IMG/VR virus record: IMGVR_UViG_3300025326_000093
Span: 1 to 41,084 of that record
Length of the DNA: 41,084 nucleotides
Strand: one strand, 5' to 3'
DNA from: a virus
Shown: positions 43 to 13,765 of the stretch, piece after piece
How the letters are laid out: every line of letters begins with the position of its first letter
Numbering within the stretch: the stretch's first letter is position 1
The notes under the pieces: model-generated
Told to the model about the DNA's origin: nothing
Database searches by the model: none
What the model saw: the letters and a program-made list of their open reading frames with translations, nothing else
Translations under genes and position numbers: made by a program

Positions 43-49
43 CCGGGGC

Positions 50-394
50 TCATGACGCCCTCCGAATCGTCGCGACTGTCTGCTCAGGCTCAGCGTCGAG
101 CGTGACCACGTCCTCGCCGTCCTCGTCACGGGCCGGGGGCGCCACGCCATCAAACAGCTTCGCGCGCAGCAGCAGAATCGCCAGACCGAGACCAGCCTCT
201 TTGGAGTCGTTAGCCGGGGCTTGGAACGCCCAATTCGTCGCGCGAATCCGCGCTGCGGCCTCATGGATGCGGCGCGGCCGCGCCTCGACGCACGAGCCAC
301 AGGGGCAACCCGGGTCGCCAAAGGCGTGGGGGGGGAGCGGATGGCAGACGAACTCGCGGGTGCTGCGAAGCAGCGTGAGAAGCCGGCGGATCAT
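50..394 (-). CDS. hypothetical leftward early protein with a CPCGSC motif
   Basis: A 114-residue protein that I do not recognise. It starts with a basic amphipathic stretch (MIRRLLTLLRS), has a Cys cluster CPCGSC near residues 30-35 that could bind a metal, an Arg-rich helix, a hydrophobic helix around residues 69-80, and an acidic C-terminus. The ATG overlaps the stop of the upstream leftward gene by 4 bp (ATGA), so the two are probably translationally coupled. Its MIRxLLTxL start and RATN-x-A-x-Q-xx-A-x-DS segment recur in the small protein at 9850-10038, which hints at distant paralogy. It is the last gene of the leftward arm, before a hairpin. The role is unknown. Confidence 0.7.
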   Translation of the reverse strand: MIRRLLTLLRSTREFVCHPLPPHAFGDPGCPCGSCVEARPRRIHEAAARIRATNWAFQAPANDSKEAGLGLAILLLRAKLFDGVAPPARDEDGEDVVTLDAEPEQTVATIRRAS

Positions 395-561
395 CGCGCA
401 GCCTTTCGCGCGGATGCGGCGCCGTTCGTGTTCTCAGCGGCCTGGCGAGCCCAGCGCTGCCCTGCGTACAAAGGCAGGTGGGCCGCGGGCAGCACGCCGA
501 GGGCTGCTAGCGCGGCGCGCTTGGTGGGCTGGCTGCGGGCGGGCGCTGTGTTCGTCGACAT
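391..561 (-). CDS. hypothetical small leftward protein, 56 aa
   Basis: This 56-residue reading frame begins MSTNTAPARSQPTKR and is rich in Ala and Arg with no recognisable domain. I include it because its stop codon overlaps the ATG of the next leftward gene in the ATGA arrangement used throughout this genome, and because its start lies just downstream of the AT-rich control region with operator-like sites at 581-589 and 611-620. It would be the first or second gene of a short leftward transcript. No function can be assigned. Confidence 0.55.
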   Translation of the reverse strand: MSTNTAPARSQPTKRAALAALGVLPAAHLPLYAGQRWARQAAENTNGAASARKAAR

Positions 562-580
562 GAGCCAACGATAGCCCGGC

Positions 581-844
581 TGATATATCGGCGTCTAGTC
601 GGCGCGTCGCTGATATGTCACTTTTTTTGTCTGCCGCAAAACACTACGACATCAGCACACGTGGTCTGCGTGGCGCGGCACATAGCGAAACCCGTGTGCT
701 TCCACCAAGGCCTGCACGTCGAACTCGCGTGCGCACCCCTCGCCAGCCAGCTTTATCGCAACGGCTAGCACTGATATATCTGAACACGTCGGCGACATGT
801 AGGCAATGAATTTGCTCTTGCCCCGATGTGTCGGGTGATATATC
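581..844. promoter_or_regulatory. cluster of GATATATC-type operator sites
   Basis: The octamer GATATATC occurs exactly at 582-589, 773-780 and 837-844, each preceded by T. Close variants lie at 612-619 (GATATGTC), 825-832 (GATGTGTC), 794-800 (GACATGT) and 648-655 (reverse-oriented GACATCAG). I did not find GATATATC elsewhere in the window. The sites flank the divergence between the leftward genes and the rightward Cro-like gene, so they are probably operators for that small helix-turn-helix protein. This assignment is an inference from position and repetition. Confidence 0.6.
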
Positions 845-855
845 GCTCGATCCAT
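652..855 (-). CDS. hypothetical leftward protein, 67 aa (or 48 aa from an internal ATG)
   Basis: The frame reads as a plausible globular protein (for example SDISVLAVAIKLAGEGCARE and VEAHGFRYVPRHADH). By my hand count its GC by codon position is about 66, 64 and 46 percent at positions 3, 1 and 2, the order expected of a real gene. From the first ATG (855) the start codon would overlap the divergent ATG of the Cro-like gene at 854 on the other strand. A second ATG at 798 would give 48 residues and free space for a promoter. Three operator-like sites fall inside the longer version. No family is recognised. It may act with the switch region, but this is only positional. Confidence 0.45.
   Translation of the reverse strand: MDRAIYHPTHRGKSKFIAYMSPTCSDISVLAVAIKLAGEGCAREFDVQALVEAHGFRYVPRHADHVC
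812..841 (+). promoter_or_regulatory. possible rightward early promoter overlapped by operators
   Basis: TTGCTC at 812-817 and TGATAT at 836-841 are spaced 18 bp and resemble sigma-70 -35 and -10 boxes. GATATATC (837-844) covers the -10 and GATGTGTC (825-832) sits in the spacer, so a bound repressor would block it. The start codon at 854 is about a helical turn downstream with no Shine-Dalgarno sequence, suggesting a leaderless message. Weak promoter match. Confidence 0.35.
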
Positions 856-1096
856 GACTCTGTCCGAATGGCTAGCGAAACAGCCCAGGGGCACGGCCGC
901 CAGCTTGATGTGGGCGACGCGCCTGAGCCACGCAACGATATCTCGGGCCAAGCGCGGCGAAAGCGTCTCCGCCAATAGCGCCGGAATCATAAGCACTTTC
1001 ACCGGCGGCAAGGTCCCAGTCGAAATATTGGTCGCTGGTGGCGCTGCCAGGCGCGCGCGCCGCGTAGCAAAGGCGGCCGGGCGGAGGCGCCTGTGA
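854..1096 (+). CDS. small Cro/YdaS-like helix-turn-helix repressor
   Basis: An 80-residue protein whose first 65 residues match the layout of Cro/YdaS-type phage regulators: a first helix (TLSEWLAKQ), then a helix-turn-helix in which the recognition helix reads SHATISRAKRGE, then a short strand and a helix ending VPVEILV. The C-terminus is a basic tail. It is the first gene of the rightward operon and sits beside a cluster of GATATATC-type sites, so it most likely binds these to balance leftward and rightward transcription. There is no clear ribosome binding site before its ATG. The stop overlaps the GTG of the next gene by 4 bp. The fold assignment is good; lysogeny control versus a purely lytic switch cannot be decided. 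Confidence 0.75.
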   Translation: MTLSEWLAKQPRGTAASLMWATRLSHATISRAKRGESVSANSAGIISTFTGGKVPVEILVAGGAARRARRVAKAAGRRRL

Positions 1097-1596
1097 GCGC
1101 CGACGTCGCCAGCTTCACGATCACGAGGCGTGACGGCGCCGTTCACACAGTCCTTGTCGATGCTGCGGACCTGGAGCGGGTGCTCGCGGCCGGGCCGTGG
1201 CAGATCCGAGCAGCTGGGGTACGCAGCAGGCTGCATTACGCGATTCGCACCATTCGCGTCGACGGCAAGCAGAAGACGCAGTTCTTACACCGCTTCCTGC
1301 TCGACCCTGGCGACCTGGAAATCGACCACCGCAACGGCGATGGTCTCGACAATCGTCGCGACAACCTGCGCATCGCGACGCGCGCCGAGAACTCACGAAA
1401 CACCGGCGTTCGCCGTGACAACTCGAGCGGATTCAAAGGGGTGAGCTTCCACAAGCAGTGCCGCAAGTGGACGGCGCAGATCAAGCTCGACGGCAAGCTG
1501 CACCGCCTCGGCCTACACGCCACACCTGAGCTTGCGCATGCCGCGTACTGCCGGGCTGCAGCCGAGTTGCACGGTCAGTTCAGGCGGACATCATGA
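1093..1596 (+). CDS. HNH-AP2 endonuclease, copy 1
   Basis: A 167-residue free-standing homing-type endonuclease of the HNH_3 plus AP2 class. Residues 6-36 hold the N-terminal block shared by all copies here (SFTITRRDGAVHTVL, then AAGPW). Residues 65-95 hold the HNH core: LHRFLLD, then IDHRNGDGLDNRRDNL with the DH pair at 78-79 and conserved Asn residues. Residues about 112-160 form an AP2 DNA-binding domain (SGFKGVSFHKQCRKW, then LGLHATPELAHAAYC). The GTG start overlaps the repressor stop and its own stop overlaps the next ATG, so it sits cleanly inside the operon. Enzymes of this class nick or cut DNA at a site that their gene then invades. Four relatives occur in this window. Confidence 0.92.
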   Translation: MSADVASFTITRRDGAVHTVLVDAADLERVLAAGPWQIRAAGVRSRLHYAIRTIRVDGKQKTQFLHRFLLDPGDLEIDHRNGDGLDNRRDNLRIATRAENSRNTGVRRDNSSGFKGVSFHKQCRKWTAQIKLDGKLHRLGLHATPELAHAAYCRAAAELHGQFRRTS

Positions 1597-1769
1597 CCGT
1601 GCTTGACTGGACAGTCCGCGCGTTAGCACTGACCGCCGTCCTGAGCGCGGGTTCCGGCATCGCGCTCTATCTGAGCGGCTGTGCGATCCACGCGCTGGCC
1701 GCCATCGCGTTCTCCTATCTCACAGGCACGGCCGCGGCGCTGGGCAGCGCGCTCGAGGTGCGGACATGA
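1593..1769 (+). CDS. small membrane protein, 58 aa
   Basis: The reading frame begins MTVLDWTVRALALTAVL and is almost wholly hydrophobic, with two likely membrane-spanning segments (about residues 7-27 and 32-52) and only a few charged residues. ATGA overlaps join it to both the upstream HNH gene and the downstream gene. It is one of several tiny membrane proteins in the early operon; such proteins in phages often act on the host envelope, but no family is recognised and no role is assigned. Confidence 0.6.
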   Translation: MTVLDWTVRALALTAVLSAGSGIALYLSGCAIHALAAIAFSYLTGTAAALGSALEVRT

Positions 1770-1978
1770 GTCCCCGGCTCCGCTCCTGGGCGCTCCACGA
1801 GCCGCTTCCGCCGCAGGACCGCGTCTCCTACCTCGAAGCACGCATCCGTGGCGCGCGCTTCAAGATCGCCGAGATGAAGTGCAGCTGTCTCGGCAAGAAA
1901 GCCTACTTCGCCGAGATCGACCGCCTGCGAAGACAAATCTTCGAATGGCGGCGTGAGCTCCGGGAGCTGAGGTTGTGA
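1766..1978 (+). CDS. hypothetical coiled-coil protein, 70 aa
   Basis: A 70-residue, strongly basic protein. Residues 18-70 are likely one long helix or coiled coil (DRVSYLEARIRGARFKIAEM, later EIDRLRRQIFEWRRELREL), with a Cys pair CSC near residue 40. The ATG overlaps the upstream stop by 4 bp and the stop overlaps the next GTG. It resembles the short helical accessory proteins common in early phage operons. The function is unknown. Confidence 0.6.
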   Translation: MSPRLRSWALHEPLPPQDRVSYLEARIRGARFKIAEMKCSCLGKKAYFAEIDRLRRQIFEWRRELRELRL

Positions 1979-2070
1979 TCGACGCGCTGTCTGACTGGCG
2001 AGTGATCGTCGCGCTGTGGGCGATCGCAGTCGCACTTCTGATTGTCTTCAACCGTGGAGCCAGCAAATGA
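1975..2070 (+). CDS. 31-aa single-span membrane peptide
   Basis: A GTG-initiated frame of 31 residues, MIDALSDWRVIVALWAIAVA followed by LLIVFNRGASK. It consists of a short polar N-terminus, one membrane span of about 17 residues and a basic tail. Both ends overlap neighbours by 4 bp (GTGA and ATGA), which is the main reason to accept so short a gene. The role is unknown. Confidence 0.45.
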   Translation: MIDALSDWRVIVALWAIAVALLIVFNRGASK

Positions 2071-2360
2071 CGTTCGTCCTCTTCGCAATCACCCTATTTT
2101 TGGCGCCGATTTACGTCGCCGCCCTGTGTTTGCTCGCTGCGCGTTGTGCTCGGTTGCCGGGGGGTGACCTGAGTATCCGCGATGAAGCGAGCATCCTGGA
2201 TCCGGTCCTCGCGAATCCCCCTCGCGTAGGGCCGGGTCCAGCTCTTTCTGACGACGAAGCGCCGACCGAGCGATGGAGTCGCGTCACGGGCACCATAAAC
2301 GTCACGCGCCTCGGCCCGCGCACGCTCGAAGTCGTCGAGACGCGGGCGGTGGCGCCATGA
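2067..2360 (+). CDS. hypothetical membrane-anchored protein, 97 aa
   Basis: Starting at the ATG that overlaps the previous stop, the protein begins with a strong N-terminal membrane segment (MTFVLFAITLFLAPIYVAAL, extending to about residue 27). A soluble, acidic then mixed tail of about 70 residues follows. It is probably anchored in the inner membrane with the tail in the cytoplasm. An upstream ATG at 2016 would add 17 residues but would run across the 31-aa gene, so I prefer 2067. No family is recognised. Confidence 0.6.
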   Translation: MTFVLFAITLFLAPIYVAALCLLAARCARLPGGDLSIRDEASILDPVLANPPRVGPGPALSDDEAPTERWSRVTGTINVTRLGPRTLEVVETRAVAP

Positions 2361-2842
2361 GCGCGAGCTTTACGATCACGCGCAAGGACGGCTCCACGCA
2401 TGTCGTGCTTGCCGATGCCGATGACCTGGAGCGCGTGTTGGCGGCTGGTCCGTGGCACGTCGCGACGCGCCACAGGACGGTGTACGTGGCCCGCAACGTT
2501 CGCGTCGACGGCAAGCAGACTAAGCAGTACCTGCATCGCTTTCTGATGGAACCGTGCGGCATGGAGGTCGACCACGTGAACGGCGACGGGTTGGACAATC
2601 GGCGCGTCAACCTGAGGCGTTCCACGCACGCGCAGAACCTTCGCAACACCGTCAAGCGCGCAGACAACACGAGCGGCCTCAAAGGCGTATGCTTCCACAA
2701 GCAGTGCCGCAAGTGGAAGGCGCAAATCAGGCTCAACGGCAAGAATCGTCACCTTGGATTGTTCGCTACATCCGAAGCGGCGCATCAGGCGTATTGCACC
2801 GCTGCCGCTGAGTTGCATGGTGAGTTTGCGAGGTTCGCATGA
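2357..2842 (+). CDS. HNH-AP2 endonuclease, copy 2
   Basis: A 161-residue paralogue of the gene at 1093. It carries the same N-terminal block (SFTITRKDGSTHVVL, then AAGPW), an HNH core (YLHRFLM, then VDHVNGDGLDNRRVNL) and a C-terminal AP2 domain (SGLKGVCFHKQCRKW, then EAAHQAYCTAAAELHGEF). It shares the phrase FHKQCRKW with copy 1 but not with copies 3-5, so copies 1 and 2 look like the closest pair. ATGA overlaps on both sides show clean insertion between genes. An active nicking or cutting enzyme is expected because the DH and Asn residues are intact. Confidence 0.92.
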   Translation: MSASFTITRKDGSTHVVLADADDLERVLAAGPWHVATRHRTVYVARNVRVDGKQTKQYLHRFLMEPCGMEVDHVNGDGLDNRRVNLRRSTHAQNLRNTVKRADNTSGLKGVCFHKQCRKWKAQIRLNGKNRHLGLFATSEAAHQAYCTAAAELHGEFARFA

Positions 2843-3249
2843 GCTTCCAACTCGTCATCATCGAGTCTCGATTAGCTGGCGACGTCGCCAGCAATCTCGC
2901 CTACGCGCGCTGCCTCATGCGGTTCTGCCTGCGCCGCGGGCAGGCACCTTTCGCTAGCCACTGCCTGTATCCGCAGGTTCTCGACGACAACATCCCTGAT
3001 GAGCGCGCACTCGGCATCGCAGCCGGCCTCGCCTGGGGCAACGCGGCCGCGCTGACCGTGGTCGGCGTCGACCTGGGCGTTTCCGACGGCATGCGGCGCG
3101 GCATCGCGCACGCACGCGCGTGCTGTCGCCAGGTCGAGTTCGTGAGCCTGGCCAAGTGGCGCCCATCGCGCGCGAAGGCGTGGGAGCTGGTCTACGCGCT
3201 TGAGCTGGTCCAGCCAGGCGCCGACGTATTCACGCTGGAGGCGCCATGA
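2839..3249 (+). CDS. DUF7768-type, nucleoside 2-deoxyribosyltransferase-like protein
   Basis: A 136-residue protein with the signature of the DUF4406/DUF7768 group of phage proteins: an opening strand with ESRLAGDVASNLAYAR, then CLRRGQAPFASHCLYPQVL, then DERALGIAAGLAW and a C-terminal GVDLGVSDGMRRGI segment. Members have a Rossmann-like fold related to nucleoside 2-deoxyribosyltransferases, and the pattern of Asp, Asn and Gly residues is kept here. A role in nucleotide or base metabolism is often suggested, but no reaction is established. The ATG overlaps the HNH copy 2 stop by 4 bp. Confidence 0.8.
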   Translation: MSFQLVIIESRLAGDVASNLAYARCLMRFCLRRGQAPFASHCLYPQVLDDNIPDERALGIAAGLAWGNAAALTVVGVDLGVSDGMRRGIAHARACCRQVEFVSLAKWRPSRAKAWELVYALELVQPGADVFTLEAP

Positions 3250-3455
3250 AGCACATCGCGACCATCGAGATCTTCGCCGACGACGACCTCGGCACGGTGC
3301 ACGCCGAGGTCTCCGCGCCGCGCCGCATCGGCCGCTATCGCAGCGGCAGCTTCGCGACGGTGAGCGCGCTGCTCAACGCGGTCGCGCCTGTCGTTGCAGA
3401 GCTTCGCGACGCGCGGGACCCGATCATCCGCATCGGGGATGGGTTCGTAACATGA
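3246..3455 (+). CDS. hypothetical protein, 69 aa
   Basis: A small protein that looks like an alpha/beta fold: a first strand (MKHIATIEIFADDD), a second strand (GTVHAEVSAP), a helix (SFATVSALLNAVAPVVAEL) and a last strand (DPIIRIGDGFV). I do not recognise a family. It overlaps the previous and next genes by 4 bp each. The position before the helicase-methyltransferase pair does not suggest a role. Confidence 0.6.
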   Translation: MKHIATIEIFADDDLGTVHAEVSAPRRIGRYRSGSFATVSALLNAVAPVVAELRDARDPIIRIGDGFVT

Positions 3456-3538
3456 CGGCCATGCCCTGGCCCGAAGCCGCCGCTGTTCTGTGCGTGATCG
3501 TGATCATCTATCTCAGCCAGTGCTGCGGGGTTCCATGA
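3452..3538 (+). CDS. 28-aa membrane peptide
   Basis: A frame of 28 residues, MTAMPWPEAAAVLCVIVIII then YLSQCCGVP with one I fewer, that is a single hydrophobic span of about 15 residues followed by a Cys pair. It is supported mainly by ATGA overlaps with both neighbours. It is the third tiny membrane peptide of this operon. The role is unknown, and it could be a translational-coupling spacer rather than a functional protein. Confidence 0.4.
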   Translation: MTAMPWPEAAAVLCVIVIIYLSQCCGVP

Positions 3539-4944
3539 CGGCGTATCAAGATTTCGTCGCGTCGAAGCTTTCGCTGAGCGCGCCCACGGGCATTCCCGAT
3601 GCGCTGGTCGGATCTGACTTCCTATTCCAGTTCCAAGCGGACCTCGTGGCTTGGGCATTGCGCCGCGGGCGCGCTGCCGTCTTCGCCGCCACCGGTCTCG
3701 GCAAGAGCCGGATGCAGCTTACGTGGGCCCATCGCGTCGCCGCCCACACGCAGAAGCCGGTGCTCATCCTGGCGCCGCTCGCTGTCTCGCAACAGACCGC
3801 CGACGAGGCCGCGCGCATCTACGTCGACGCGACCGTCGCGAAAGATGGCTCGATGGTCACGCCCGATCGCGCTCACGTCTACGTCACCAACTACGAGAAG
3901 CTGCACCGCTTCGACCCGAGCGTGTTCGGTGGGGTGGTTTGGGACGAGTCGTCCATCTGCAAGAGCTTCAACAGCAAGACGCTCGCTCAGCTGCTCGCGG
4001 CCTTTTCAGGCACAGCCTTCCGACTCGCGTGCACCGCCACGCCGTCCCCGAACGATTACACGGAGCTCGGGACGCACGCGGAGCTGCTTGGCGTCTGCAC
4101 ACGCGCCGAGATGCTGGCTGAGTACTTCGTGCACGATGGCGGCGAGACCCAGAAGTGGCGCCTCAAGGGCCACGGGCGCGCGCAATTCTGGAAGTTCGTG
4201 GCGAGCTGGGCGGCGCTCGTGCGGTCGCCCGTCGACCTTGGATACGACGGCAGTGCGTACGAGCTGCCAGAACTCACGGTCGAGCATCATGTGGTGGGCG
4301 CTGACGACGAGTCCGTAAAGGCTACGGGGCTGCTGTTCGCGCAGGAGGCCCGTACGTTGATGGAGCGGCGAGCGGCTCGGCGCGGGTCGATGGCATCGCG
4401 TGTTCGCGAGTGCGCCGATCTCGTCAACAGCGACAAGGAGCCATGGGTGGTCTGGTGCCTGCTCAACGATGAGAGCGAGGCCCTGGCCAAGGCCATTCCT
4501 GGCGCCGTGGAAGTCCGCGGCTCGAACACCGAGGACGAGCGCGAGCGGGCGCTGATGGCTTTCTCGTCGGGGGCCGCCAGGGTCATTATTTCGAAGGCAT
4601 CCATCACAGGATGGGGTTTGAACTGGCAGCACTGCGCGCGCGTCGCCTTTGTTGGCGTGGATGACTCGTGGGAGTCGTATCACCAGGCCGTGCGGCGTTG
4701 CTGGCGGTTCGGGCAGACGCGTGAGGTGCAAGTGCACCTCTTCTCGAGCGAGCTTGAGGGCGCCGTCATGAAGAACCTGCAACGCAAGGAGTCCGACGCT
4801 CAAGCGATGGCGGAGGAGCTCTCGATAGAAACGGCGGAAGTGGTCCGCAGCGAGGTGCGCGGGACGGTACGTGCGACGAACGAGTATGACGCGCGGCAGA
4901 CCATGCGCGTACCTGAGTGGATGACAAGCGAGGGAGGCTGCTAG
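3535..4944 (+). CDS. SNF2-type DEAD/H helicase/ATPase
   Basis: A 469-residue superfamily 2 ATPase. A Q-like motif (FQFQADLV, about 31-38) precedes Walker A ATGLGKS (52-58). The DEAH-type Walker B is WDESS (136-140) and motif III is TATPSPND (167-174). The C-terminal RecA-like lobe carries SITGWGLNWQ (356-365) and the arginine-finger motif QAVRRCWRFGQ (384-394). It is about the usual size of phage SNF2 helicases. I chose the ATG at 3535, overlapping the upstream stop, over a GTG at 3490. It directly precedes a DNA methyltransferase, a pairing frequent in phages, so it may remodel DNA for modification or replication. Confidence 0.9.
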   Translation: MTAYQDFVASKLSLSAPTGIPDALVGSDFLFQFQADLVAWALRRGRAAVFAATGLGKSRMQLTWAHRVAAHTQKPVLILAPLAVSQQTADEAARIYVDATVAKDGSMVTPDRAHVYVTNYEKLHRFDPSVFGGVVWDESSICKSFNSKTLAQLLAAFSGTAFRLACTATPSPNDYTELGTHAELLGVCTRAEMLAEYFVHDGGETQKWRLKGHGRAQFWKFVASWAALVRSPVDLGYDGSAYELPELTVEHHVVGADDESVKATGLLFAQEARTLMERRAARRGSMASRVRECADLVNSDKEPWVVWCLLNDESEALAKAIPGAVEVRGSNTEDERERALMAFSSGAARVIISKASITGWGLNWQHCARVAFVGVDDSWESYHQAVRRCWRFGQTREVQVHLFSSELEGAVMKNLQRKESDAQAMAEELSIETAEVVRSEVRGTVRATNEYDARQTMRVPEWMTSEGGC

Positions 4945-5919
4945 GTGCCGGTCATTGACCAACATATTACGGACAGATTTGCGGCGTACATGGGCGATAC
5001 GGTCATGGTGACACGTGAGCTACCACCGCAGAGTTGCGATTTTTCCATCTTCAGCCCCCCTTTCGGATCGTTGTACGTTTACGGCAATTCGCCGAATGAT
5101 ATGGGCAATGTTCGCAACGATGAAGAGTTCTTCAAGCACTACGATTTTCTGATCTCGGAGACGAGACGCGTAATGAAGCCGGGACGTCTTGTCGCTCTGC
5201 ATTGCATGAACTTGCCAACCTCGAAAGAGCGCGACGGATTCATCGGCATCAAGGACTTTCGCGGAGAGCTCATCCGAGCCTACCAGCGTCACGGTTTCAT
5301 CTATCACTCAGAAGTGTGCATCTTCAAAGATCCTGTCACCGCGATGCAGCGGACCAAGGCCTTTGGTCTTTTACATAAGACCATCCGCAGGGACTCCACA
5401 ATGTCTCGCCAAGGTCTGCCGGACTATCTCGTGGTGATGCGAACGCCAGGTACTAATCCAGACCCTGTATCGCACACATTCGAGTCATTCCCGATCGAGC
5501 GCTGGCAGCGCTTTGCGAGTCCGTGCTGGGTGTCGATCAAAGGCGTTGACGACGACGGCTTCGGGATCTGCGGCGACGACCAGCAGTCAGGGAACGACTC
5601 GAGTGGCATCGACGCAACCGATACGCTGCAATACCGCAGCGCTCGCGAGCACAGCGACGAGCGCCACATCGCGCCGCTCCAACTCGAAGTAATCCGCCGC
5701 GCGATCAGGCTGTGGACGAACAGCAACGAGCTTGTCTGGTCGCCGTTCATGGGCATCGGCAGCGAAGGTTACGTCGCCCTCCAAGAGGGACGACGGTTCG
5801 TCGGCGCGGAGCTGAAGCGCTCTTACTACGAGCAGGCGGTGCGCAACCTGGCGAGCGCCGTTTCGCAATCCAAACAGCCCAGTCTTTTCGATCTCGTCGA
5901 ACAATCAGAGGCAGTATGA
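4945..5919 (+). CDS. beta-class DNA N6/N4 methyltransferase
   Basis: A 324-residue S-adenosylmethionine-dependent DNA methyltransferase. The catalytic motif IV is SPPFGSLY (37-44), a variant of the D/N/S-PPY motif. The AdoMet-binding motif I, SPFMGIGSEG, is near residues 266-275, followed by GAELKRSYYEQA. The order catalytic motif then binding motif is the beta class, which methylates adenine N6 or cytosine N4. It starts with GTG straight after the TAG of the helicase gene. Its codons look less GC-rich than those of its neighbours, which hints at separate acquisition. No restriction partner is visible, so it probably protects phage DNA from host restriction. The target sequence is unknown. 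Confidence 0.9.
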   Translation: MPVIDQHITDRFAAYMGDTVMVTRELPPQSCDFSIFSPPFGSLYVYGNSPNDMGNVRNDEEFFKHYDFLISETRRVMKPGRLVALHCMNLPTSKERDGFIGIKDFRGELIRAYQRHGFIYHSEVCIFKDPVTAMQRTKAFGLLHKTIRRDSTMSRQGLPDYLVVMRTPGTNPDPVSHTFESFPIERWQRFASPCWVSIKGVDDDGFGICGDDQQSGNDSSGIDATDTLQYRSAREHSDERHIAPLQLEVIRRAIRLWTNSNELVWSPFMGIGSEGYVALQEGRRFVGAELKRSYYEQAVRNLASAVSQSKQPSLFDLVEQSEAV

Positions 5920-6098
5920 AACAGCTAGCGTTAGAGTTTTTTCCCGGCGCCGCGTTCGACGCCAACGACGGCAGCATAGTCATCGAAGCATTGCGCGAGG
6001 CCGCCGAGATGTGTCGCGGCTCGGACGAGATGCCCGACCAGCCCCTCAAGCGCTACGTGCTCGACGCCTTCGCCGATCAGCTGGAAGGAGCGATCTGA
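5916..6098 (+). CDS. hypothetical protein, 60 aa
   Basis: A 60-residue acidic protein beginning MKQLALEFFPGAAFDANDGS. The QLALEFF segment resembles the Q-L/F-x-L/F-F type of clamp-binding peptide, and it lies directly upstream of the sliding-clamp gene, so clamp binding is conceivable but unproven. The rest is helical. The ATG overlaps the methyltransferase stop by 4 bp, and a strong Shine-Dalgarno sequence inside its end (GGAAGGAG) serves the clamp gene. Confidence 0.6.
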   Translation: MKQLALEFFPGAAFDANDGSIVIEALREAAEMCRGSDEMPDQPLKRYVLDAFADQLEGAI

Positions 6099-7187
6099 AT
6101 GCAACTCGTCATCGCGAAAACCGATCTCGTCCCACTCCTCGCCGCCGCAGCTTCCGCAGCCGCGCCCAAGTCACCGATGCTCGGGCACACCATGGTGTCG
6201 CTCGACGCTGCAGACGGCAGCCTACGCGTCCGCGCTTCGGACAGCTACGTCGGCATCAGCTCGAGCACCACGTGCGCCGTCAAGTCGCCAGGTGCCTGCG
6301 CCGTTGATGCGCGCCGAGTCTTCGACTCCGCGAAGGCGCTGCCTGCTGGCGATGTCCAGATCAAGGCCACCGCTGATCATCTCGAGCTCCGCTCTGGGAA
6401 ATCCGCGAAGTTCAAGATTCCGACCTTCCCCGCCGACGACCTCGCCCCGCCCCCCGCGCTCGACGATGCCAAAGCAGTGGCGTCCGTGCCCGCCTCAGAC
6501 CTGCTGAGGGCGCTACGGTCCGGCTCCTACGCCCGGGACAGTGATGACAGCCGCGGCATGTCAGGCACGCTCTTGGACGCCCGAGCGGGCGAGCTGCGCG
6601 TCGTTGGATGCTGCAGTTCTCGCATGGCCGTCGCCACCATCGTCGTCGAGTGCGCGGGGTCGCAGTTGGTTCTTCCGAGTCGCGGGCTGGGCGAGTTGAT
6701 GAAGCTTTGCGAGGCCCACTCGGAGGATCCCGTCGCGATCTCGTACTACGGCTCCATGGCCGTATTCACCGCCAGCACGACGACGCTGTGGACTCGTCTC
6801 CAGGACGACAAGTTCGTCGCCTACCAGCGAATCCTCGAGTCGCTCAAGGCCGTGCACACCGTGCACGTGCTGCGTGACGCGTTCCTGGACGTGGTCAAGC
6901 GCGTGTCGGTCGCCTGCGCGCGTGAAAAGACTGGTAGCTCGGCAACGCTCGCATTCGCGGACGGAGAACTCAGGCTGTCGGCGGTCTCTGTCACGGGCGA
7001 GGCCAGCGACGCGCTCGAATGCGACGCGGACTTCGCGGGCGTCATGGATCTCGACCCGGACCTGCTGTCAGCGGCGATTGCTGCGGCTGGCGAGGACGAA
7101 CTGACGGTTCTGTTCAGCGATGATTCGTCGCCGCTGACGATCCGGTGTGCGGGCTATTTGGCCGTCGTAATGGGCAGGCGCAGGTAA
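6099..7187 (+). CDS. dnaN: DNA polymerase III beta sliding clamp
   Basis: A 362-residue protein matching bacterial beta clamps in length and layout. The first domain opens MQLVIAKTDLVPLLAAAASA, followed by LRVRASDSYVGIS where the host clamp reads ATD-type motifs. The second domain has DARAGELRVVGCCSSRMAVA, matching the conserved TDGHRLA strand. The third domain holds the loading and polymerase-binding surface and ends DDSSPLTIRCAGYLAVVMGRRR, like the PxR(M/L)P C-terminus but altered. Clamps encircle DNA and tether polymerase. GGAAGGAG lies before the ATG. No polymerase or clamp loader is present, so host Pol III would be the partner. Confidence 0.88.
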   Translation: MQLVIAKTDLVPLLAAAASAAAPKSPMLGHTMVSLDAADGSLRVRASDSYVGISSSTTCAVKSPGACAVDARRVFDSAKALPAGDVQIKATADHLELRSGKSAKFKIPTFPADDLAPPPALDDAKAVASVPASDLLRALRSGSYARDSDDSRGMSGTLLDARAGELRVVGCCSSRMAVATIVVECAGSQLVLPSRGLGELMKLCEAHSEDPVAISYYGSMAVFTASTTTLWTRLQDDKFVAYQRILESLKAVHTVHVLRDAFLDVVKRVSVACAREKTGSSATLAFADGELRLSAVSVTGEASDALECDADFAGVMDLDPDLLSAAIAAAGEDELTVLFSDDSSPLTIRCAGYLAVVMGRRR

Positions 7188-7444
7188 TGGACGTCCGCGC
7201 CAGCAACGCCATCGCCGCCGACCCCGAGCGACTGGGCAAGCGCCTGCGTGAGCTGCGCCGCGGCGCTGGTCTTACTCAGCTTCAGGTAGCGCGCGAGATG
7301 GGAACGTCCAGGGGCGCCCTGGCCAAGATCGAGAATGGCTGGACGCTGCCTGGATTGGACACGCTCGGCAGGTTTTGCACGGCGGTCGGCGTGCGCGTGT
7401 CGGATGTGTTGGTTGGGGCGGGCGCGAAAGGGGACGTTTTCTAA
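7187..7444 (+). CDS. XRE-family helix-turn-helix regulator
   Basis: An 85-residue protein that is almost entirely one XRE/Cro-C1 domain: LGKRLRELRRGAGLTQLQVA, then REMGTSRGALAKIENG with the recognition helix, then PGLDTLGRFCTAVGVRVSDVL. The ATG overlaps the clamp TAA by one base. It is distinct from the YdaS-like protein at 854, so the phage has at least two small DNA-binding regulators. Its position between clamp and replication initiator suggests control of replication or of a later switch. It is one candidate to act at the repeated late-promoter element, but there is no direct evidence. Confidence 0.85.
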   Translation: MDVRASNAIAADPERLGKRLRELRRGAGLTQLQVAREMGTSRGALAKIENGWTLPGLDTLGRFCTAVGVRVSDVLVGAGAKGDVF

Positions 7445-8250
7445 TGTGGTTCAAGGTCGACGACGGGTTCCCGGAGCACCCGAAGCTCGAAGAGCTCGAG
7501 CATGAACCAAGGCTCTACATGGCTGCCATCACCGTGTGGACGATCATGGGTGCAGACTGCGCGCGACGTCTCACGGACGGCTTTGTCAGCCATGCCAGGC
7601 TAGACAAGGTGCTCTTTAGGATCGGCAAGGCGGCGCGCGATGGCGCCCGGGCCCTTGTCAGCTGTGGACTTTGGGTCGAGGTAGAGGGCGGTTGGTCGTA
7701 TCACGACTGGCACGACTACCAACCCACGAAGTCGGATGTAGGCGCGTCGAGGAGGACAAAAGCAGAACGCCAGAGACGCTGGCGTAGCAAGCATGTAGAC
7801 GCGTCTACAGACGCGTCTACTAACGCAGCTACGACAACGTCGCGAGACGCTGGTGAGGCCTCGCGCACGCGTAGCGCGTATCCCGACCCGACCCGACCCG
7901 ACCCGGATCCCCCTGTAGTCCCCCAACCCGAGTCCGGGGTGCACGAGGTCCCACGGCCAGACGACTCGCTGGCCCGAGCTCGGAGGTACTACTCCGAGCT
8001 GCTCGAGGACCTGAGCACGTTCCCCACGTGGACCGCGCCGGCCGTGGCAAACGCGAAGTCGCTGGCGGTCTGGGCAGACAAGCACGCAGACCCAGCGCTG
8101 GCGCTCAGAGCCGCTTTCCTGGGCTTCCGACACGACCCGTGGGCAAAGACCAAGGGGTACCCCATCGGGGCGCTCGCGAACGGCGCGCAGAAGTACCACG
8201 CGGTTGGAGCCGACCTGCTCGAGCAGACCCGCGACGAGGTCGCCCAATGA
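7444..8250 (+). CDS. DnaD-like replication initiator/replisome organiser
   Basis: A 268-residue protein. Its N-terminus (MWFKVDDGFPEHPKLEELE) is typical of the winged-helix domain of phage replisome organisers. A charged segment (RRTKAERQRRWRSKH) and a low-complexity linker rich in Asp, Pro, Arg, Ser and Thr (about 115-170) lead to a C-terminal helical domain (SLARARRYYSELLEDL, then FLGFRHDPWAKTKGYPIGAL). The family binds origin DNA and helps load the DnaB-type helicase, which is encoded immediately downstream with a 4-bp overlap. The linker is encoded by simple DNA repeats at 7798-7825 and 7884-7908, which could also be the origin or a slippage-prone tract. Confidence 0.78.
   Translation: MWFKVDDGFPEHPKLEELEHEPRLYMAAITVWTIMGADCARRLTDGFVSHARLDKVLFRIGKAARDGARALVSCGLWVEVEGGWSYHDWHDYQPTKSDVGASRRTKAERQRRWRSKHVDASTDASTNAATTTSRDAGEASRTRSAYPDPTRPDPDPPVVPQPESGVHEVPRPDDSLARARRYYSELLEDLSTFPTWTAPAVANAKSLAVWADKHADPALALRAAFLGFRHDPWAKTKGYPIGALANGAQKYHAVGADLLEQTRDEVAQ
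7798..7908 (+). repeat. simple repeats inside the initiator gene
   Basis: Two short tandem tracts lie in the linker-coding part of the initiator gene: ACGCGTCTAC repeated with a CAG or TAA step at about 7799-7823, and a CCCGA pentamer repeated about five times at 7884-7908. They encode Ala-Ser-Thr-Asp and Pro-Asp-Pro-Thr-Arg runs. Such repeats in a replication gene can be iteron-like initiator sites or slippage products. Confidence 0.6.
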
Positions 8251-9578
8251 GCCGGCTGGCGCTCTCCCCGCTGTTCGACCCTGAGCAAGAACGCTCCGCG
8301 ATCTCGGTGCTGCTGCGGGACTACGGACGCTTCCTGGCTCTCGGGCTCACCGAGCGGCACTTCACCGTGGCCCAACACGTCGCGGTCATCCAAGCGGCCG
8401 ACAGGCTCGCTGACTCCGGGGCGGCGGTCACGTTCGAAGCCCTGGCGCTCGAACTGCAGCGCGCCGGCATGGACCGGCTGATTGGTGGCCAGGAAGGCAT
8501 CCTGGAGCTCCGCAGAGGCGCTCCGGGCACCGTGCTCGACGTCCAGCGCCTGCGGAAGCTCACGAGCCTCAGGGCGGTCCGTGAGGCGCTCGTGGAGGGC
8601 GCTGAGCTCGCGGGCCGAGAGGACCTGCAGGGCGCACTTGCCAAGCTCGACGGCGCCATGACGCTCGGCAAGCTGGACTCGACCGTGCTCGGCCTGCGGC
8701 AGCTGTGCGAACTCGCGCTCGAGCAAGGGAGCAGCGAGCTGCAGGCCCGCAAGCGAATCATCTACCCGGGCTCCGAAGCGCTCGAGGAGGTTTTGACAGG
8801 CTTCCGACCCGGCGGCATGTACGTGCTCGGCGCGCTTTCGAACGTTGGCAAGAGCATGATCGCTCAGACTTGGGCGCTGAACTGCGTGCGCCATGGGCTG
8901 GTGGTCGGATGGGTGTCGCTCGAGGATCCCATCCTGACCACCGGCTCACGAGCGCTCGGAATGCTCGCCAACGTCGAGCCACAGCGAATCGAGACCGGAG
9001 CGGCTCTCAGCACCAGCGAAGAGCGCATGCGGCTGGAGCGTGGTCACGGCCAGGCCATGGAGTTCGACGGTCGGTTCTTGTACACCGACTTGACCGGGCA
9101 AACGGAGCTCGACGTTTGCGCGGCCATGAGCGTGATGGCGGCACGCGGGGCGAAGCTGGTCATCGTGGACTACGTCGGCGTCATCACGTCGAGCAAGGAC
9201 CAGCAGGACCGACGCAACGAAGTCCGGTACGTGGCAATCAGGCTCAAAGCTCAGGCGAAGCGGCTTGGTATCGCGCTACTACTGATCTCTCAGCTCACCA
9301 TGCCGCGCGACGACGTCGGAGTGGCCCGCGAGCCGAGCAAGTACAGCCTGCGCGAATCAGGCGACCTTACCAATGCTGCCGAGGCGATCATCCTTGCGTG
9401 GCGGCTGGAAGAGTCTGACAACGCAGAAATCAATCTGGTAATGTCTAAGGGCAAAAGCGGTGGCGTCGGAAAGCACTGGACGATGCAGCGGGACGAGTCC
9501 ACTCAGCAGCTTGTGGAGACGTCGAGACCGCAGTACAGAAAAAAGCAGAAGCCTGCAGTACGAGGGTTCAGCTCATGA
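8247..9578 (+). CDS. dnaB: DnaB-family replicative helicase
   Basis: A 443-residue hexameric replicative helicase. An N-terminal helical domain (about 1-150, LLRDYGRFLALGLTERHFT) precedes the RecA-like ATPase. Walker A is GALSNVGKS (195-203), the S-LED strand is at 224-227, Walker B is LVIVDY (304-309) and the sensor-like ISQL is at 347-350, followed by a region with SGDLTNAAE as in DnaB. The length is slightly short of bacterial DnaB. The start at 8247 overlaps the initiator stop by 4 bp; the frame stays open upstream to 8028 but that part only shadows the initiator gene. It unwinds DNA ahead of a polymerase that must come from the host. Confidence 0.92.
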   Translation: MSRLALSPLFDPEQERSAISVLLRDYGRFLALGLTERHFTVAQHVAVIQAADRLADSGAAVTFEALALELQRAGMDRLIGGQEGILELRRGAPGTVLDVQRLRKLTSLRAVREALVEGAELAGREDLQGALAKLDGAMTLGKLDSTVLGLRQLCELALEQGSSELQARKRIIYPGSEALEEVLTGFRPGGMYVLGALSNVGKSMIAQTWALNCVRHGLVVGWVSLEDPILTTGSRALGMLANVEPQRIETGAALSTSEERMRLERGHGQAMEFDGRFLYTDLTGQTELDVCAAMSVMAARGAKLVIVDYVGVITSSKDQQDRRNEVRYVAIRLKAQAKRLGIALLLISQLTMPRDDVGVAREPSKYSLRESGDLTNAAEAIILAWRLEESDNAEINLVMSKGKSGGVGKHWTMQRDESTQQLVETSRPQYRKKQKPAVRGFSS

Positions 9579-9853
9579 AGTTCGAGAGCGTTCAGGAAGC
9601 AATCGTGGCGCTGCGTGAGAGGCGCCCGTTCGATTGGTCCTACTACGAGAGGTCGGCAGAGGTGGTAGTGAAGGCCGGCCTGCATTGCCGTGGCGAGCAG
9701 GTGTATTCAGACCTAGACGATGCGCTGGGAGACTGGCGAGCAGAGTACGAATGCGACGTGAGGCAGATGGCTGAGCACATCATGGAGCTCGGCGGAAACG
9801 TCGACGACGCTGTGGTTGATGGTCTGTTCGTATGGGCTGAGGCCGCCCGATGA
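9575..9853 (+). CDS. hypothetical acidic protein, 92 aa
   Basis: A 92-residue protein with no recognised domain. It has an N-terminal helix (FESVQEAIVALRERRPFDW), aromatic residues in WSYYERSAEVVVKAG, and acidic segments (YSDLDDALGDWRAEYE) that suggest a compact helical fold. It is joined to the helicase gene and to the following gene by 4-bp overlaps, so it is probably co-expressed with the replication genes. No function can be given. Confidence 0.65.
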   Translation: MKFESVQEAIVALRERRPFDWSYYERSAEVVVKAGLHCRGEQVYSDLDDALGDWRAEYECDVRQMAEHIMELGGNVDDAVVDGLFVWAEAAR

Positions 9854-10038
9854 TCCGCTCACTTCTAACCCGCCTCGCCCTCCGCATCCTCCGCGGCACG
9901 CCGCACGACCCCGAGCTCTTACGCGCCGGTCTGGTGGCCGCGCAGCTGCGCGCGATGAATCTCGAGGAGCAGCTGCTCCGTGAGCGCGCGACGAATCGGG
10001 CGTGGCAGTTCTTTGCGGTCGACTCGAGGAGGCACTGA
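9850..10038 (+). CDS. hypothetical basic helical protein, 62 aa
   Basis: A 62-residue protein with an amphipathic basic N-terminus (MIRSLLTRLALRILRG) that could associate with membranes or nucleic acid, and a second helix (GLVAAQLRAMNLEEQLLRER). The closing RATNRAWQFFAVDS resembles a segment of the leftward protein at 50-394, which also begins MIRxLLTxL. The two may be diverged copies. It has ATGA overlaps with both neighbours. The role is unknown. Confidence 0.6.
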   Translation: MIRSLLTRLALRILRGTPHDPELLRAGLVAAQLRAMNLEEQLLRERATNRAWQFFAVDSRRH

Positions 10039-10289
10039 TGGGCGAAGCGGAAAACATGGCCTTCCTGCCCGCCACCGTATCGGCCGGCATGTTCCCCGCC
10101 GAGCGCGTTGTCACGGTCGAGCATCTGGACGGCGTGTCCAGCTGGTTCGTGCCTGACCACTACGTCAGCTTCGACGGCGCTTCGGTACGAGTGCGCCGGC
10201 TTCATGTCGGGCTGACGTGGGAGCTGCTGGGCGTGCCGAGTCTGGACGGTAATACGGCGATCGTGGTGCGAAGAGGATTGGCGAGATGA
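10038..10289 (+). CDS. hypothetical beta-rich protein, 83 aa
   Basis: A protein of 83 residues starting MGEAENMAFLPATVSAGMF. Alternating hydrophobic residues (ERVVTVEHLDGVSSWFV, ASVRVRRLHV, TAIVVRRG) suggest a small beta barrel or sheet. The ATG shares one base with the previous stop. An ATG at 10002 would extend it over the previous gene and is unlikely. There is no family match that I recognise. Confidence 0.65.
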   Translation: MGEAENMAFLPATVSAGMFPAERVVTVEHLDGVSSWFVPDHYVSFDGASVRVRRLHVGLTWELLGVPSLDGNTAIVVRRGLAR

Positions 10290-10525
10290 CCACCACAGAC
10301 GATAGCGACAAACGGCTCCACCCCGACCCGATCGTGCGCTGCGCTTACTACGTCAAGCGCACAGAAGCCGCAGAGATCAAGCTGGCAGTGCTGCGCGCTG
10401 GCATCGAGTCGCTGGCGGCGCGGTGGGAGGAAGACTCGCGCAGCACAGCCGACCTGAACAGCGCTGGTAGCGAGATGAGGCGCTGCGCTCGTCAGGCGCG
10501 GAAGCTGCTCGGAGGCGAGACGTGA
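10286..10525 (+). CDS. hypothetical helical protein, 79 aa
   Basis: A 79-residue mostly helical protein (AYYVKRTEAAEIKLAVLRAG, then SEMRRCARQARKLLGGE). The polar N-terminus TTTDDSDKRLHPDP is likely disordered. It is chained to its neighbours by 4-bp overlaps and lies just before the DUF1064 nuclease gene. No recognisable domain. Confidence 0.6.
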   Translation: MTTTDDSDKRLHPDPIVRCAYYVKRTEAAEIKLAVLRAGIESLAARWEEDSRSTADLNSAGSEMRRCARQARKLLGGET

Positions 10526-10836
10526 GACCGTTCAAGCCAGTCAACAAGTATCGAGCCCGCCGCACGCGCGGGTACAGCAGCAAGCGTGAAGCTCAGTACG
10601 CAGACACGCTTGTGCTGCGGAAGCAGGCGGGCGAGGTGCTCGACTGGCTCGAGCAAGTAACGATCAAACTGCCAGGCGGAAACAAGTACGTCTGCGACTT
10701 CGTCGTGTTCGAAGCGACCGGCGCAACCAGGTTCGTGGAGATCAAAGGAGTCGAGACCGAGCAGTGGACCATCAAGGTGCGCGCGCTCGAAGCGGCGCGG
10801 CCGTGGATTTTCGAGCGATTGGAGATTCTCAAATGA
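10522..10836 (+). CDS. DUF1064 restriction-endonuclease-fold protein
   Basis: A 104-residue protein of the DUF1064 family, small phage nucleases with the restriction-endonuclease fold. The hallmarks are an opening NKYRARRTRGYSSKREAQYA with catalytic-type Glu23, a strand YVCDFVVFE with Asp59, and FVEIKGVETEQW with the Glu73-x-Lys75 pair. The family is often found near replication and recombination genes and is thought to cleave branched or foreign DNA, though the substrate is not established. The GTG start overlaps the upstream stop by 4 bp. All three acidic/lysine positions appear intact. Confidence 0.82.
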   Translation: MRPFKPVNKYRARRTRGYSSKREAQYADTLVLRKQAGEVLDWLEQVTIKLPGGNKYVCDFVVFEATGATRFVEIKGVETEQWTIKVRALEAARPWIFERLEILK

Positions 10837-11054
10837 CCGAAGAGAAGAAACGCGCGCGCAGTCCTAACAAAACCATGGAGCAGATGCTGCAAGCCAAGCT
10901 CGACGCCGTGATTAGACGGCGCCTCACCGCGCAAAATCGGGCCACAGCCGCGCAAATAGAGGAGCGCGATTTGCGGGCGCAGTCGGACAAACTGCGACGC
11001 GCTATCGACGCGCTCGATGCGCTGGCTGGTGATGGCGGGGAGACTTCGCCGTGA
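10833..11054 (+). CDS. hypothetical coiled-coil protein, 73 aa
   Basis: A highly charged 73-residue protein. A basic N-terminus (TEEKKRARSPNKT) leads into one long predicted helix (RRLTAQNRATAAQIEERDLR, then LRRAIDALDALAG), so a coiled-coil dimer is likely. ATGA overlap upstream and GTGA overlap downstream. The role is unknown; DNA binding through the basic part is possible. Confidence 0.6.
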   Translation: MTEEKKRARSPNKTMEQMLQAKLDAVIRRRLTAQNRATAAQIEERDLRAQSDKLRRAIDALDALAGDGGETSP

Positions 11055-11419
11055 CCCGCGGCGTATTTGCAGCGGTCGAGAAGGCTCTGTCTGGACACCT
11101 CAGCATCGGGCCCGTTACGCTGTATGGCGCCAACGCGATGCACTGGGGGGTCACCATCAGCACGCGCAGGTGGGGATACGTCTGCTTCCGGCTGCCGTTG
11201 CCCTGCTTCGGCAAGTGGTGGCCGCTCTACTTCTACGCTTCTCCGAATGCCACGCCATGGGCCTCTACCTATTCGGTCGGAGGCGGGCACAGCAAGCTCG
11301 CTTCGCTGGAGCGCAGCCTTCAAGCCGAGTCCAGGCGTCGAGCGTTCGGGCACGGCTTCTGCGTCAGCCAGAACGCCGAGGAGCTGCAGCGGATCAACCA
11401 ACAGGCCAGGTACTCGTGA
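11051..11419 (+). CDS. hypothetical protein, 122 aa, aromatic-rich
   Basis: A 122-residue protein starting at a GTG that overlaps the previous stop. The middle is beta-rich and strongly aromatic (GVTISTRRWGYVCFRLPL, then WWPLYFYASPNATPW), and the C-terminus is helical. The text resembles a small enzyme or binding domain but I do not recognise the family. Its opening MTRGVFAAVEKA is echoed by the 21-codon frame that follows, suggesting a partial duplication. Confidence 0.6.
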   Translation: MTRGVFAAVEKALSGHLSIGPVTLYGANAMHWGVTISTRRWGYVCFRLPLPCFGKWWPLYFYASPNATPWASTYSVGGGHSKLASLERSLQAESRRRAFGHGFCVSQNAEELQRINQQARYS

Positions 11420-11481
11420 CCCGCGGTCAACACCAACTGCTCGCCGCGGTCGAGAGGGCGGCGCCGGTGATCGCGCCATGA
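11416..11481 (+). CDS. possible 21-aa peptide
   Basis: A GTG-initiated frame of 21 residues, MTRGQHQLLAAVERAAPVIA plus P, that overlaps both neighbours by 4 bp. Its start resembles that of the gene just upstream (MTRGVFAAVEKA), so it may be a duplicated remnant that keeps ribosomes moving to the next gene. Too short to be sure it yields a working protein. Confidence 0.3.
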   Translation: MTRGQHQLLAAVERAAPVIAP

Positions 11482-11666
11482 CCCGCAACCTAGAGCTGTC
11501 TGCGATGCAGGTCTGCACGCGGCTGAGCGCGCGGCTCTCTAAGACGGCCTGCGCAGCTCGGTGGAGAAAGGCTGCCGCTATGCGGCCGGGAGCCATCGCA
11601 GATAGCTGCTGCAATTGCCGCGGTTGCCCGATCGGCGATCGCAATGCGGCGGAGCCGCCGCCATGA
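11478..11666 (+). CDS. small Cys-rich phage protein with CPIG motif
   Basis: A 62-residue protein with a helix (MQVCTRLSARLSKTACAARW) and a Cys cluster at about residues 44-50 reading SCCNCRGCPIGD, which suggests a bound zinc ion. Small phage proteins with the same plan (an ALSxxACARRW-like helix followed by CxxCPIG) occur in accessory regions of other phages, as far as I recall. The biochemical role is not known. The ATG overlaps the preceding stop by 4 bp. Confidence 0.6.
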   Translation: MTRNLELSAMQVCTRLSARLSKTACAARWRKAAAMRPGAIADSCCNCRGCPIGDRNAAEPPP

Positions 11667-11878
11667 CCGCCTGCAAGTTGCTATCGCAGATGACCGACGC
11701 GGAGCTCGAAGCTGAGGCGGTCTACCTGGAATCTACGAAGGCGAGGGCTGATTACGCCTCCCACGGCCAAATTCTTGGACTGCTAGCGTGGGAGGCGGAA
11801 TCCGCTGGGATGCAATCACGGCTGGACAGTAAGCGGCTGGTTCTAGAGGAGATCGCGCGGCGGCGCGGCAAAGGCTAG
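11663..11878 (+). CDS. hypothetical helical protein, 71 aa
   Basis: A 71-residue acidic, helical protein beginning MTACKLLSQMTDAELEAEAV. The ATG at 11663 overlaps the previous stop; an earlier in-frame ATG at 11615 would lie inside the Cys-rich gene and is less likely. The C-terminal helix is basic (EEIARRRGKG). It resembles short helical adaptor-like proteins but matches no family I know. It ends 2 nt before the next ATG. Confidence 0.6.
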   Translation: MTACKLLSQMTDAELEAEAVYLESTKARADYASHGQILGLLAWEAESAGMQSRLDSKRLVLEEIARRRGKG

Positions 11879-11880
11879 CG

Positions 11881-12312
11881 ATGACCCTGCGCGTCGAGCC
11901 ACGCTGCCCGCAGCTACGATTGGTCCCGGCCGAGCCGGCGCTGCCGACGCGCGTGTCGTACTGGCGCATCGGGCTCGAGCTTCGCCGTCTGGACGGCCGC
12001 GGGCAATCGCGCGAGCAGCAGGCCGAGCAGGCGCGGCAACTGTCGCGCGAGGGGCGGCAGGCGGTCAGCAGGGCGCTGACGTCGCTGTACCTGGCGGCGC
12101 TGCGCATCATGCCGGACCAGGCGGACGAGATCCTGCTGGCGGTCGTGCTGTCGGGGATGCCGACGGGCGACGGCTTGTCGGCTGGGTCGCAGCGCGCGCG
12201 GTGGGTGCAGTCGCTACCGGGCTGGACGAAACGGGTTCTGCAGCGCCGCTGGGAAGCGAGCGGGCAGCTCGCAAAGCGCCCACCGCCGACGCTCGATCTA
12301 GGATGCCGATAG
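11881..12312 (+). CDS. hypothetical protein, 143 aa
   Basis: A 143-residue Arg- and Gln-rich protein. A helix with RGQSREQQAEQARQLSREGR leads into SRALTSLYLAALRIMPDQAD, and the C-terminal third carries two Trp residues (RWVQSLPGWTKRVLQRRW). The composition suggests a nucleic-acid-binding or packaging-associated helical protein, but no family is recognised. It begins two bases after the previous stop with no strong Shine-Dalgarno sequence, so translation may be coupled. Confidence 0.6.
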   Translation: MTLRVEPRCPQLRLVPAEPALPTRVSYWRIGLELRRLDGRGQSREQQAEQARQLSREGRQAVSRALTSLYLAALRIMPDQADEILLAVVLSGMPTGDGLSAGSQRARWVQSLPGWTKRVLQRRWEASGQLAKRPPPTLDLGCR

Positions 12313-12317
12313 AAGCC

Positions 12318-12842
12318 ATGGCGCACAGAAGAAACGCTCCGTTTGCGATCGCAATCAGCTCCGCCGTGCCAGCAGCCAGCGAGAAGAACCTCCTGCTCGG
12401 CAGCTGGCGGCACAGCCTTCAGGATTCGCCCTTCGGTGGCAGCATGCCGGCGCGGGCGTTCTCTGCGTGGTTCGAGGAAATATGCGATTTCTATCTCGAC
12501 CTCGAGAGCGACGATGTGCGGCTGCCGCGCGGCGTCACGCTGTTGACGATTCGGATGGCCGAACGGGCGAGCTTCATCGCCGGATGGCTCTTGCTTGATC
12601 GTGGCGTGCCGGGCGTGACGGCGCTCGTGTACTGCTACTGCAAGAAAGCGAGTCAGCTTAGGAATTGCGGCCTTGCGAGTCTGCTAATCAGCAGCGCGCT
12701 CGACATGGCAGGAGACGACGAAGTCGTCCACTGCCTTAGCGGTCCTAGGGAATGGCAGAAGGCGAAGATCGACGCTTATGGCTTCCCCTACCGCAGCATC
12801 GAAGACTTCCTGCGCGCAGACAGAAACGCGGAGGCGGCGTGA
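12318..12842 (+). CDS. GNAT-like acetyltransferase-related protein
   Basis: A 174-residue protein (179 from the in-frame ATG at 12303). The N-terminal third has FYLDLESDDVRL. A central part reads like the acetyl-CoA-binding region of the GNAT fold: a strand FIAGWLLLDRG, then VTALVYCYCKKASQLRNCGL in which QLRNCGLASLLI stands for the R/Q-x-x-G-x-G/A pyrophosphate loop. Proteins of this type are common just upstream of terminase genes in podovirus genomes. Because the loop is degenerate (RNCG), catalysis is uncertain. The stop overlaps the GTG of the next gene. Confidence 0.6.
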   Translation: MAHRRNAPFAIAISSAVPAASEKNLLLGSWRHSLQDSPFGGSMPARAFSAWFEEICDFYLDLESDDVRLPRGVTLLTIRMAERASFIAGWLLLDRGVPGVTALVYCYCKKASQLRNCGLASLLISSALDMAGDDEVVHCLSGPREWQKAKIDAYGFPYRSIEDFLRADRNAEAA

Positions 12843-13087
12843 TTTTGAAGCTGGTCGAGTTCGTGCACAACGTGCAGCTGCCTGGTGCCACGCCAGGCGA
12901 CATTCGTTGGAACACGACGCTCGTTAGTGAGCTGTACGAGCTCACCAAGAGCGGCGACGTCGTGCACGCGATGGAACGGTCGACAGGCAAGCGGCTGAGC
13001 TATCCGTGGCAATCGGTGAGGTTCGCTGAGTTCGGAGACGAGGCCACTGAGCCGGCTGATCCGGCCAACCGAGAGACAGCGAGGTAG
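12839..13087 (+). CDS. hypothetical protein, 82 aa
   Basis: An 82-residue protein with a GTG start overlapping the previous stop. It begins MILKLVEFVHNVQLPG and includes a helix VSELYELTKSGDVVHAMER and a polar tail. The pattern recalls small phage proteins that carry a beta sheet with VQLPGAxxxDIRWN; I have no firm family. The frame stays open upstream to 12752 but only across the GNAT-like gene. Its location before the packaging genes suggests late-early expression. Confidence 0.6.
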   Translation: MILKLVEFVHNVQLPGATPGDIRWNTTLVSELYELTKSGDVVHAMERSTGKRLSYPWQSVRFAEFGDEATEPADPANRETAR

Positions 13088-13091
13088 CCGC

Positions 13092-13466: not shown

Positions 13467-13477
13467 GGAGCGAAAGC

Positions 13478-13762: not shown

Positions 13763-13765
13763 GCC

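Follow-up and report, generated by a model that had tools for sequence, protein, structure and literature searches.

A predicted phage β-clamp with an altered partner pocket, encoded beside a methyltransferase with a clamp-binding-like tail

The virus record IMGVR_UViG_3300025326_000093 of IMG/VR (G000), analysed over its whole length of 41,084 bases (the window), encodes a beta-type sliding clamp whose partner-binding pocket appears strongly altered by alignment; a DNA methyltransferase encoded close by ends in a tail resembling a clamp-binding motif. We propose that this protein is a functional, phage-specific alternative beta clamp, which the host would load and which would serve host Pol III as well as clients encoded by the phage, the methyltransferase among them; in our judgement this reading is about evenly balanced. 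Phage clamps without a polymerase turn out to be common, which moves the question to their binding partners. New here are the altered pocket and the tail of the methyltransferase, which bear on whether phages redirect clamp traffic and link DNA modification with replication.

The clamp gene (positions 6099–7187, plus strand; 362 residues) is an intact open reading frame with an ATG start and coding-like base composition (third-position GC 0.80). Residues 1–361 match the PHROGs profile phrog_947 (‘DNA polymerase processivity factor’; E 1.4e-48) and the N-terminal domain only matches PF00712 (E 1.3e-12; 48.3 bits versus a cut-off of 24.4); the TIGR00663 DnaN equivalog threshold is missed (98.6 bits versus a cut-off of 137.65). 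The single-chain AlphaFold2 model (pLDDT 92.1, pTM 0.89) is predicted to adopt the three-domain clamp fold, as judged with Foldseek, which matches it to bacterial beta clamps at a TM of ~0.9 and also to phage clamps in BFVD, and with VIA-align, in which E. coli beta (3q4j_B) gives the highest Z score (39.8; rmsd 1.9 Å over 353 residues). The DNA-channel residues Arg24, Arg73 and Arg80 are K, R and K in the phage clamp, all basic. The preliminary description had placed a full-length beta-clamp gene here, beside an initiator and a DnaB-type helicase, and the profile matches and predicted fold, together with those of the neighbouring genes, bear this out.

Those neighbours form a run of plus-strand genes whose ends adjoin or overlap, in the order helicase, methyltransferase, 60-residue protein, clamp, HTH regulator, initiator, DnaB. 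The run opens with a DEAD/SNF2-type helicase (3490–4944; phrog_62, E 2.2e-59), homologues of which adjoin the methyltransferase in several clamp-bearing contigs of related phages, and continues with the N6_N4 DNA methyltransferase (4945–5919; PF01555, E 3.5e-15; phrog_67, E 3.4e-32) and a 60-residue orphan protein (5916–6098; no phrog match), whose stop codon abuts the clamp ATG. Downstream of the clamp are a Cro/CI-type HTH regulator (7187–7444; PF13560, E 1.7e-13), a replication initiation protein (7444–8250; phrog_2447, E 1.5e-36) and a DnaB-like replicative helicase (8247–9578; PF03796, E 3.1e-26; phrog_19, E 1e-44). A promoter and terminator scan of positions 1–13800 gave nothing above shuffles. 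The window also encodes TerS, TerL, portal, major head protein and endolysin. In the early region there is a DUF7768 protein (2839–3249) with a weak likeness to nucleoside 2-deoxyribosyltransferase (phrog_355), and five related HNH-AP2 endonuclease-like genes are spread over the window (1093–1596, 2357–2842, 18594–19076, 29301–29789 and 36705–37102), the last being split into two short open reading frames.

Pfam and PHROGs scans took in 32 distinct proteins out of 64 genes predicted, and six-frame family searches cover the remaining genes for polymerases. These searches of the window found no match to PF00476, PF07733 or PF00136 (families A, C and B, respectively) or to the clamp-loader family PF13177, which rules out a second or hidden polymerase of families A, B or C and a PF13177 loader in the record; the polymerase search comprises these three families, with PF03175, PrimPol and families X and Y outside it. 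The reported absence of a polymerase and of a clamp loader accordingly stands for these families, in a record that may be a fragment, since it has no terminal repeats and carries no completeness estimate.

What did not survive is the view of a clamp without a polymerase as an oddity. PF00476 and PF07733 were matched in none of 49 records searched in six frames (this one, three named phages and 45 clamp-bearing viral contigs) and in none of 14 further named clamp-bearing phages, whilst PF00136 and PF13177 were each matched in 0/49 (this record, all 17 named phages and 31 contigs). A family A, B or C polymerase is thus found in 0/17 named clamp-bearing phages, and one of family A or C in 0/45 contigs. 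The contigs, which may themselves be fragments, were drawn from 80 clamp loci with long ones favoured; the 14 named phages were picked among 60 listed matches, with no kind contributing more than a few, bacterial-looking records excluded and polymerase status playing no part, and large phages fall outside the sample. Among the phages searched, lack of a polymerase is the rule, and it is not special to this one. Two annotations count against a blanket rule: a figure legend for phage MMDA13 includes a DNA polymerase as well as a Pol III beta subunit (PMC7472734), and RHph_X2_25 has a gene annotated ‘putative DNA primase/polymerase’. Three records were rejected as sources of phage clamps: L004 (CAKLQH020000026.1, an Acinetobacter ‘phage’) is annotated dnaA-dnaN-recF-gyrB, and the open reading frames of the fecal ‘phage’ records L006 (MT838334.1) and L007 (MT837552.1) read like bacterial dnaN-recF chromosome pieces.

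PMC11139829 lists the partner-pocket residues of the clamp as nearly all conserved and describes this same pocket as the binding site of Pol III alpha and of the delta subunit of the loader. In the alignment, residues 171–176 of the phage clamp (codons 6609–6626, plus strand) read CCSSRM where T-D-G-H-R-L is usual, such that the D-G-H core (E. coli 173–175) is C-S-S. Six of the 18 listed pocket residues are identical to those of E. coli dnaN (R152, R176, R246, V360, M362 and R365), five swaps stay non-polar or small (L155M, T172C, L177M, P242V and V247I), and the other changes affect the D-G-H core, N320, Y323, P363 and M364. Because the arginines, V360 and M362 are kept and several swaps are non-polar or small, the site for the ‘LF’ hydrophobic anchor of a partner motif looks usable; by alignment, the glutamine of the motif meets a changed site.

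In an alignment of 104 clamps the core is highly conserved among the comparators (D173 in 101/102, G174 in 99/102 and H175 in 96/102), and none of the 103 with letters at these positions, E. coli included, has all three residues changed; three Arthrobacter phages change two. The pocket core reads T-D-R-Y-R-[LM] in the Arthrobacter phages Persistence, Richie and Colucci (L113, L118 and L119) and T-D-G-L-K-M in Agrobacterium phage Rivra (L115). Given so strongly altered a pocket, binding of host Pol III is not to be taken for granted, and the host, whose Pol III alpha and delta subunits use this pocket, might not load or use the clamp.

The C-terminal end of the methyltransferase (...KQPSLFDLVEQSEAV) includes a clamp-binding-like QPSLF (codons 5875–5889, plus strand), and the tail motif recurs in homologues. 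The pattern [SDAGNTE][LM]F occurs in 24/29 distinct homologue tails, whereas 2000 shuffles within the tails average 2.2 and never exceed 7. Each tail is the stretch that follows the last conserved block; the set comes from viral contigs with and without a clamp, includes the phage's own tail, and omits homologues cut by an end or with an alignment short of the tail. In bacterial genomes, searched with patterns that leave the tail untouched, the count is 36/75 distinct tails against a shuffle mean of 4.8 and maximum of 14 (1000 shuffles; tails from the best 80 of 378 relatives, two cut by contig ends). As the sequences are related, the shuffles test residue order rather than independence; within that reading, the tail is clamp-binding-like and conserved beyond chance in both sets. 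Several genome tails without the motif end instead in a zinc-ribbon-like stretch. An N6_N4 methyltransferase family of phages and prophages from several bacterial phyla shares the arrangement of a variable linker followed by a Q-x-[SD]-L-F-type tail, like those of sliding-clamp partners.

The methyltransferase search brought up 17 records, some of them short fragments, and none encodes a clamp; the tail is thus more probably a tag for binding clamps in general, in many cases that of the host. The literature provides related cases: a QL(S/D)LF motif and DNMT1-PCNA coupling are described in PMC9690074, and in Erythrobacter phage R6L a short clamp-like open reading frame adjoins a DNA modification methylase (PMC5463345). 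A literature search, with most subscription journals outside it, revealed no methyltransferase recognised as having a beta-clamp-binding tail.

The preliminary description had instead proposed the 60-residue protein as a partner, through its QLALEFF segment. The segment exists, and its QLALEF (codons 5922–5939, plus strand) fits QLxLxF, given in PMC11139829 as one of the two highest-affinity clamp-binding consensus forms; it is the single QLxLxF in the predicted proteome, versus 0.088 expected per shuffled proteome. The protein has no relatives in viral_contigs, and the suggested structure prediction with the clamp, made as a read-through fusion, gave no confident docking. In that model the 60-residue part has a pLDDT of 62–69, with QLALEF modelled as a helix, and the clamp's final pLDDT block is 79 (three residues) versus 54 for the clamp alone (two residues), too little for a docking claim. 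N-terminal QL motifs at other loci show only a weak excess and were set aside as evidence, with 8/3687 starts with a Shine-Dalgarno-like match, the protein's own motif included, versus 15/24906 without. The 60-residue protein is the weaker client candidate; judged on its tail sequence, the methyltransferase is the better-supported candidate partner and the best candidate client.

Motif counts over the whole proteome of the record were discarded as evidence, being not above shuffles (strict pentapeptide 1 versus 0.83; hexapeptide 3 versus 2.3). An unbiased survey of the loci, covering 114 protein families, ranked methyltransferases and phrog_204, a small phage protein, highest for the motif. 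A Q-type motif is present in 9/10 non-redundant phrog_204 members versus 0.38 expected, and a clamp is also encoded in 42/50 records of phrog_204 relatives (50 taken of 80, with seeds from clamp loci); the motif count among the later-fetched relatives is not evidence, since the search pattern was the motif itself. The C-terminal stretch H-P-[QS]-Q-x-[DN]-M-F of phrog_204 is conserved, and its gene lies near the phage clamp gene (L016:8485-8817, L024, L027, L035, L039, L045, L080, L081, L012 and L015). In the window itself, the search yielded no phrog_204 member. The phrog_6074 gene, which lies directly after the clamp in relatives, was rejected as the source of a clamp-binding tail; some members end KEMF, but many end KEMD plus one residue.

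In the mechanism that we propose for the phage-specific clamp, the phage initiator and DnaB-like helicase would open the phage DNA, the host clamp loader would place the phage ring on it, and host Pol III would copy the phage whilst held by that ring. The changed pocket may shift partner preference toward phage-encoded clients; of these, the QPSLF-tailed methyltransferase would act behind the fork to mark freshly made phage DNA. That a polymerase-less clamp phage uses the host replicase is plausible, given how common the lack of a polymerase is and the intact predicted ring fold.

Other readings of the same evidence have to be weighed against this one. The clamp could be a general-purpose second clamp that does the job of the host clamp with host Pol III, simply providing more of it, the pocket changes being neutral drift. 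The frequency of polymerase-less clamp-bearing phages fits this, as does the comparison of conserved columns: the phage clamp keeps 6/16 in the pocket and 28/75 elsewhere (Fisher P 0.62), so that general divergence could explain the pocket. By the same measure one ordinary bacterial clamp, L006, keeps only 5/16 pocket columns, although it retains D-G-H. We nonetheless hold this reading to be doubtful. Among the 13 clamps listed, E. coli keeps 16/16 pocket columns versus 54/76 elsewhere, Acinetobacter 16/16 versus 47/76, and L087 16/16 versus 43/72, all retaining the pocket though diverged outside it; joint loss of the D-G-H core has no parallel among the 103 comparators.

A changed pocket would also suit a decoy, a clamp which disturbs the host replisome through mixed dimers or partner sequestering rather than aiding phage synthesis. 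Phages do target host clamps, as with the phage protein Gp168, which binds the host clamp and blocks its loading (PMC11139829) and whose clamp complex (7evp) is among the structure matches. The grouping of the clamp gene with the initiator and DnaB rather than apart from them, the full ring fold in the predicted model and the DNA-channel positions that are all still basic make such a role very unlikely. We think it equally improbable that the partner polymerase is encoded on phage sequence absent from the record: the lack of terminal repeats and of a completeness estimate, the MMDA13 legend and the primase/polymerase annotation in a named relative would allow it, but the record already holds the terminase, portal, head, endolysin, initiator and helicase genes, and none of the 17 named clamp-bearing records has a family A, B or C polymerase.

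The phage-specific clamp loaded by the host can be extended into a broader proposal, which we regard as unlikely on present evidence. Phage clamps of this kind would be less polymerase processivity factors than tool-belts for phage-encoded non-polymerase clients, with the pocket here re-cut to prefer these over host ones; methyltransferases and, in relatives, phrog_204 with its Q-x-[DN]-M-F tail would ride the clamp behind the fork, as a counterpart of DNMT1 on PCNA.

As regards known systems, searches of viral_contigs found no closer relatives of the clamp, its middle part, TerL or DnaB, and those of genome_contigs no close relative of the clamp; the literature search described above, with the same coverage, likewise revealed no phage beta clamp recognised as acting without a polymerase. 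The main text of the AP-16-3 paper contains neither the word polymerase nor the word replication (PMC10460002). The phrog_947 clamps of Rhizobium phage 16-3, RHph_TM3_3_14B, X2_25, AP-16-3 and others resemble this one in a full-length profile match and the same fold, and in their genomes, too, replication genes occur with neither a loader nor a polymerase of families A, B or C. The clamps of viral contigs are 23–28 % identical to the phage clamp, which differs in the replacement of the D-G-H pocket core. With bacterial DnaN (E. coli beta, TIGR00663) it shares the three-domain ring fold at ~20 % identity in structure alignments, but it lies below the equivalog cut-off and has the E. coli residue at only six of the 18 listed pocket positions. 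The closest parallel to the idea put forward here is DNMT1-PCNA in eukaryotes, in which a short motif holds a DNA methyltransferase on a sliding clamp (PMC9690074); the likeness is only an analogy, and the conserved tail motif suggests that the phage methyltransferase may be tethered in a similar manner.
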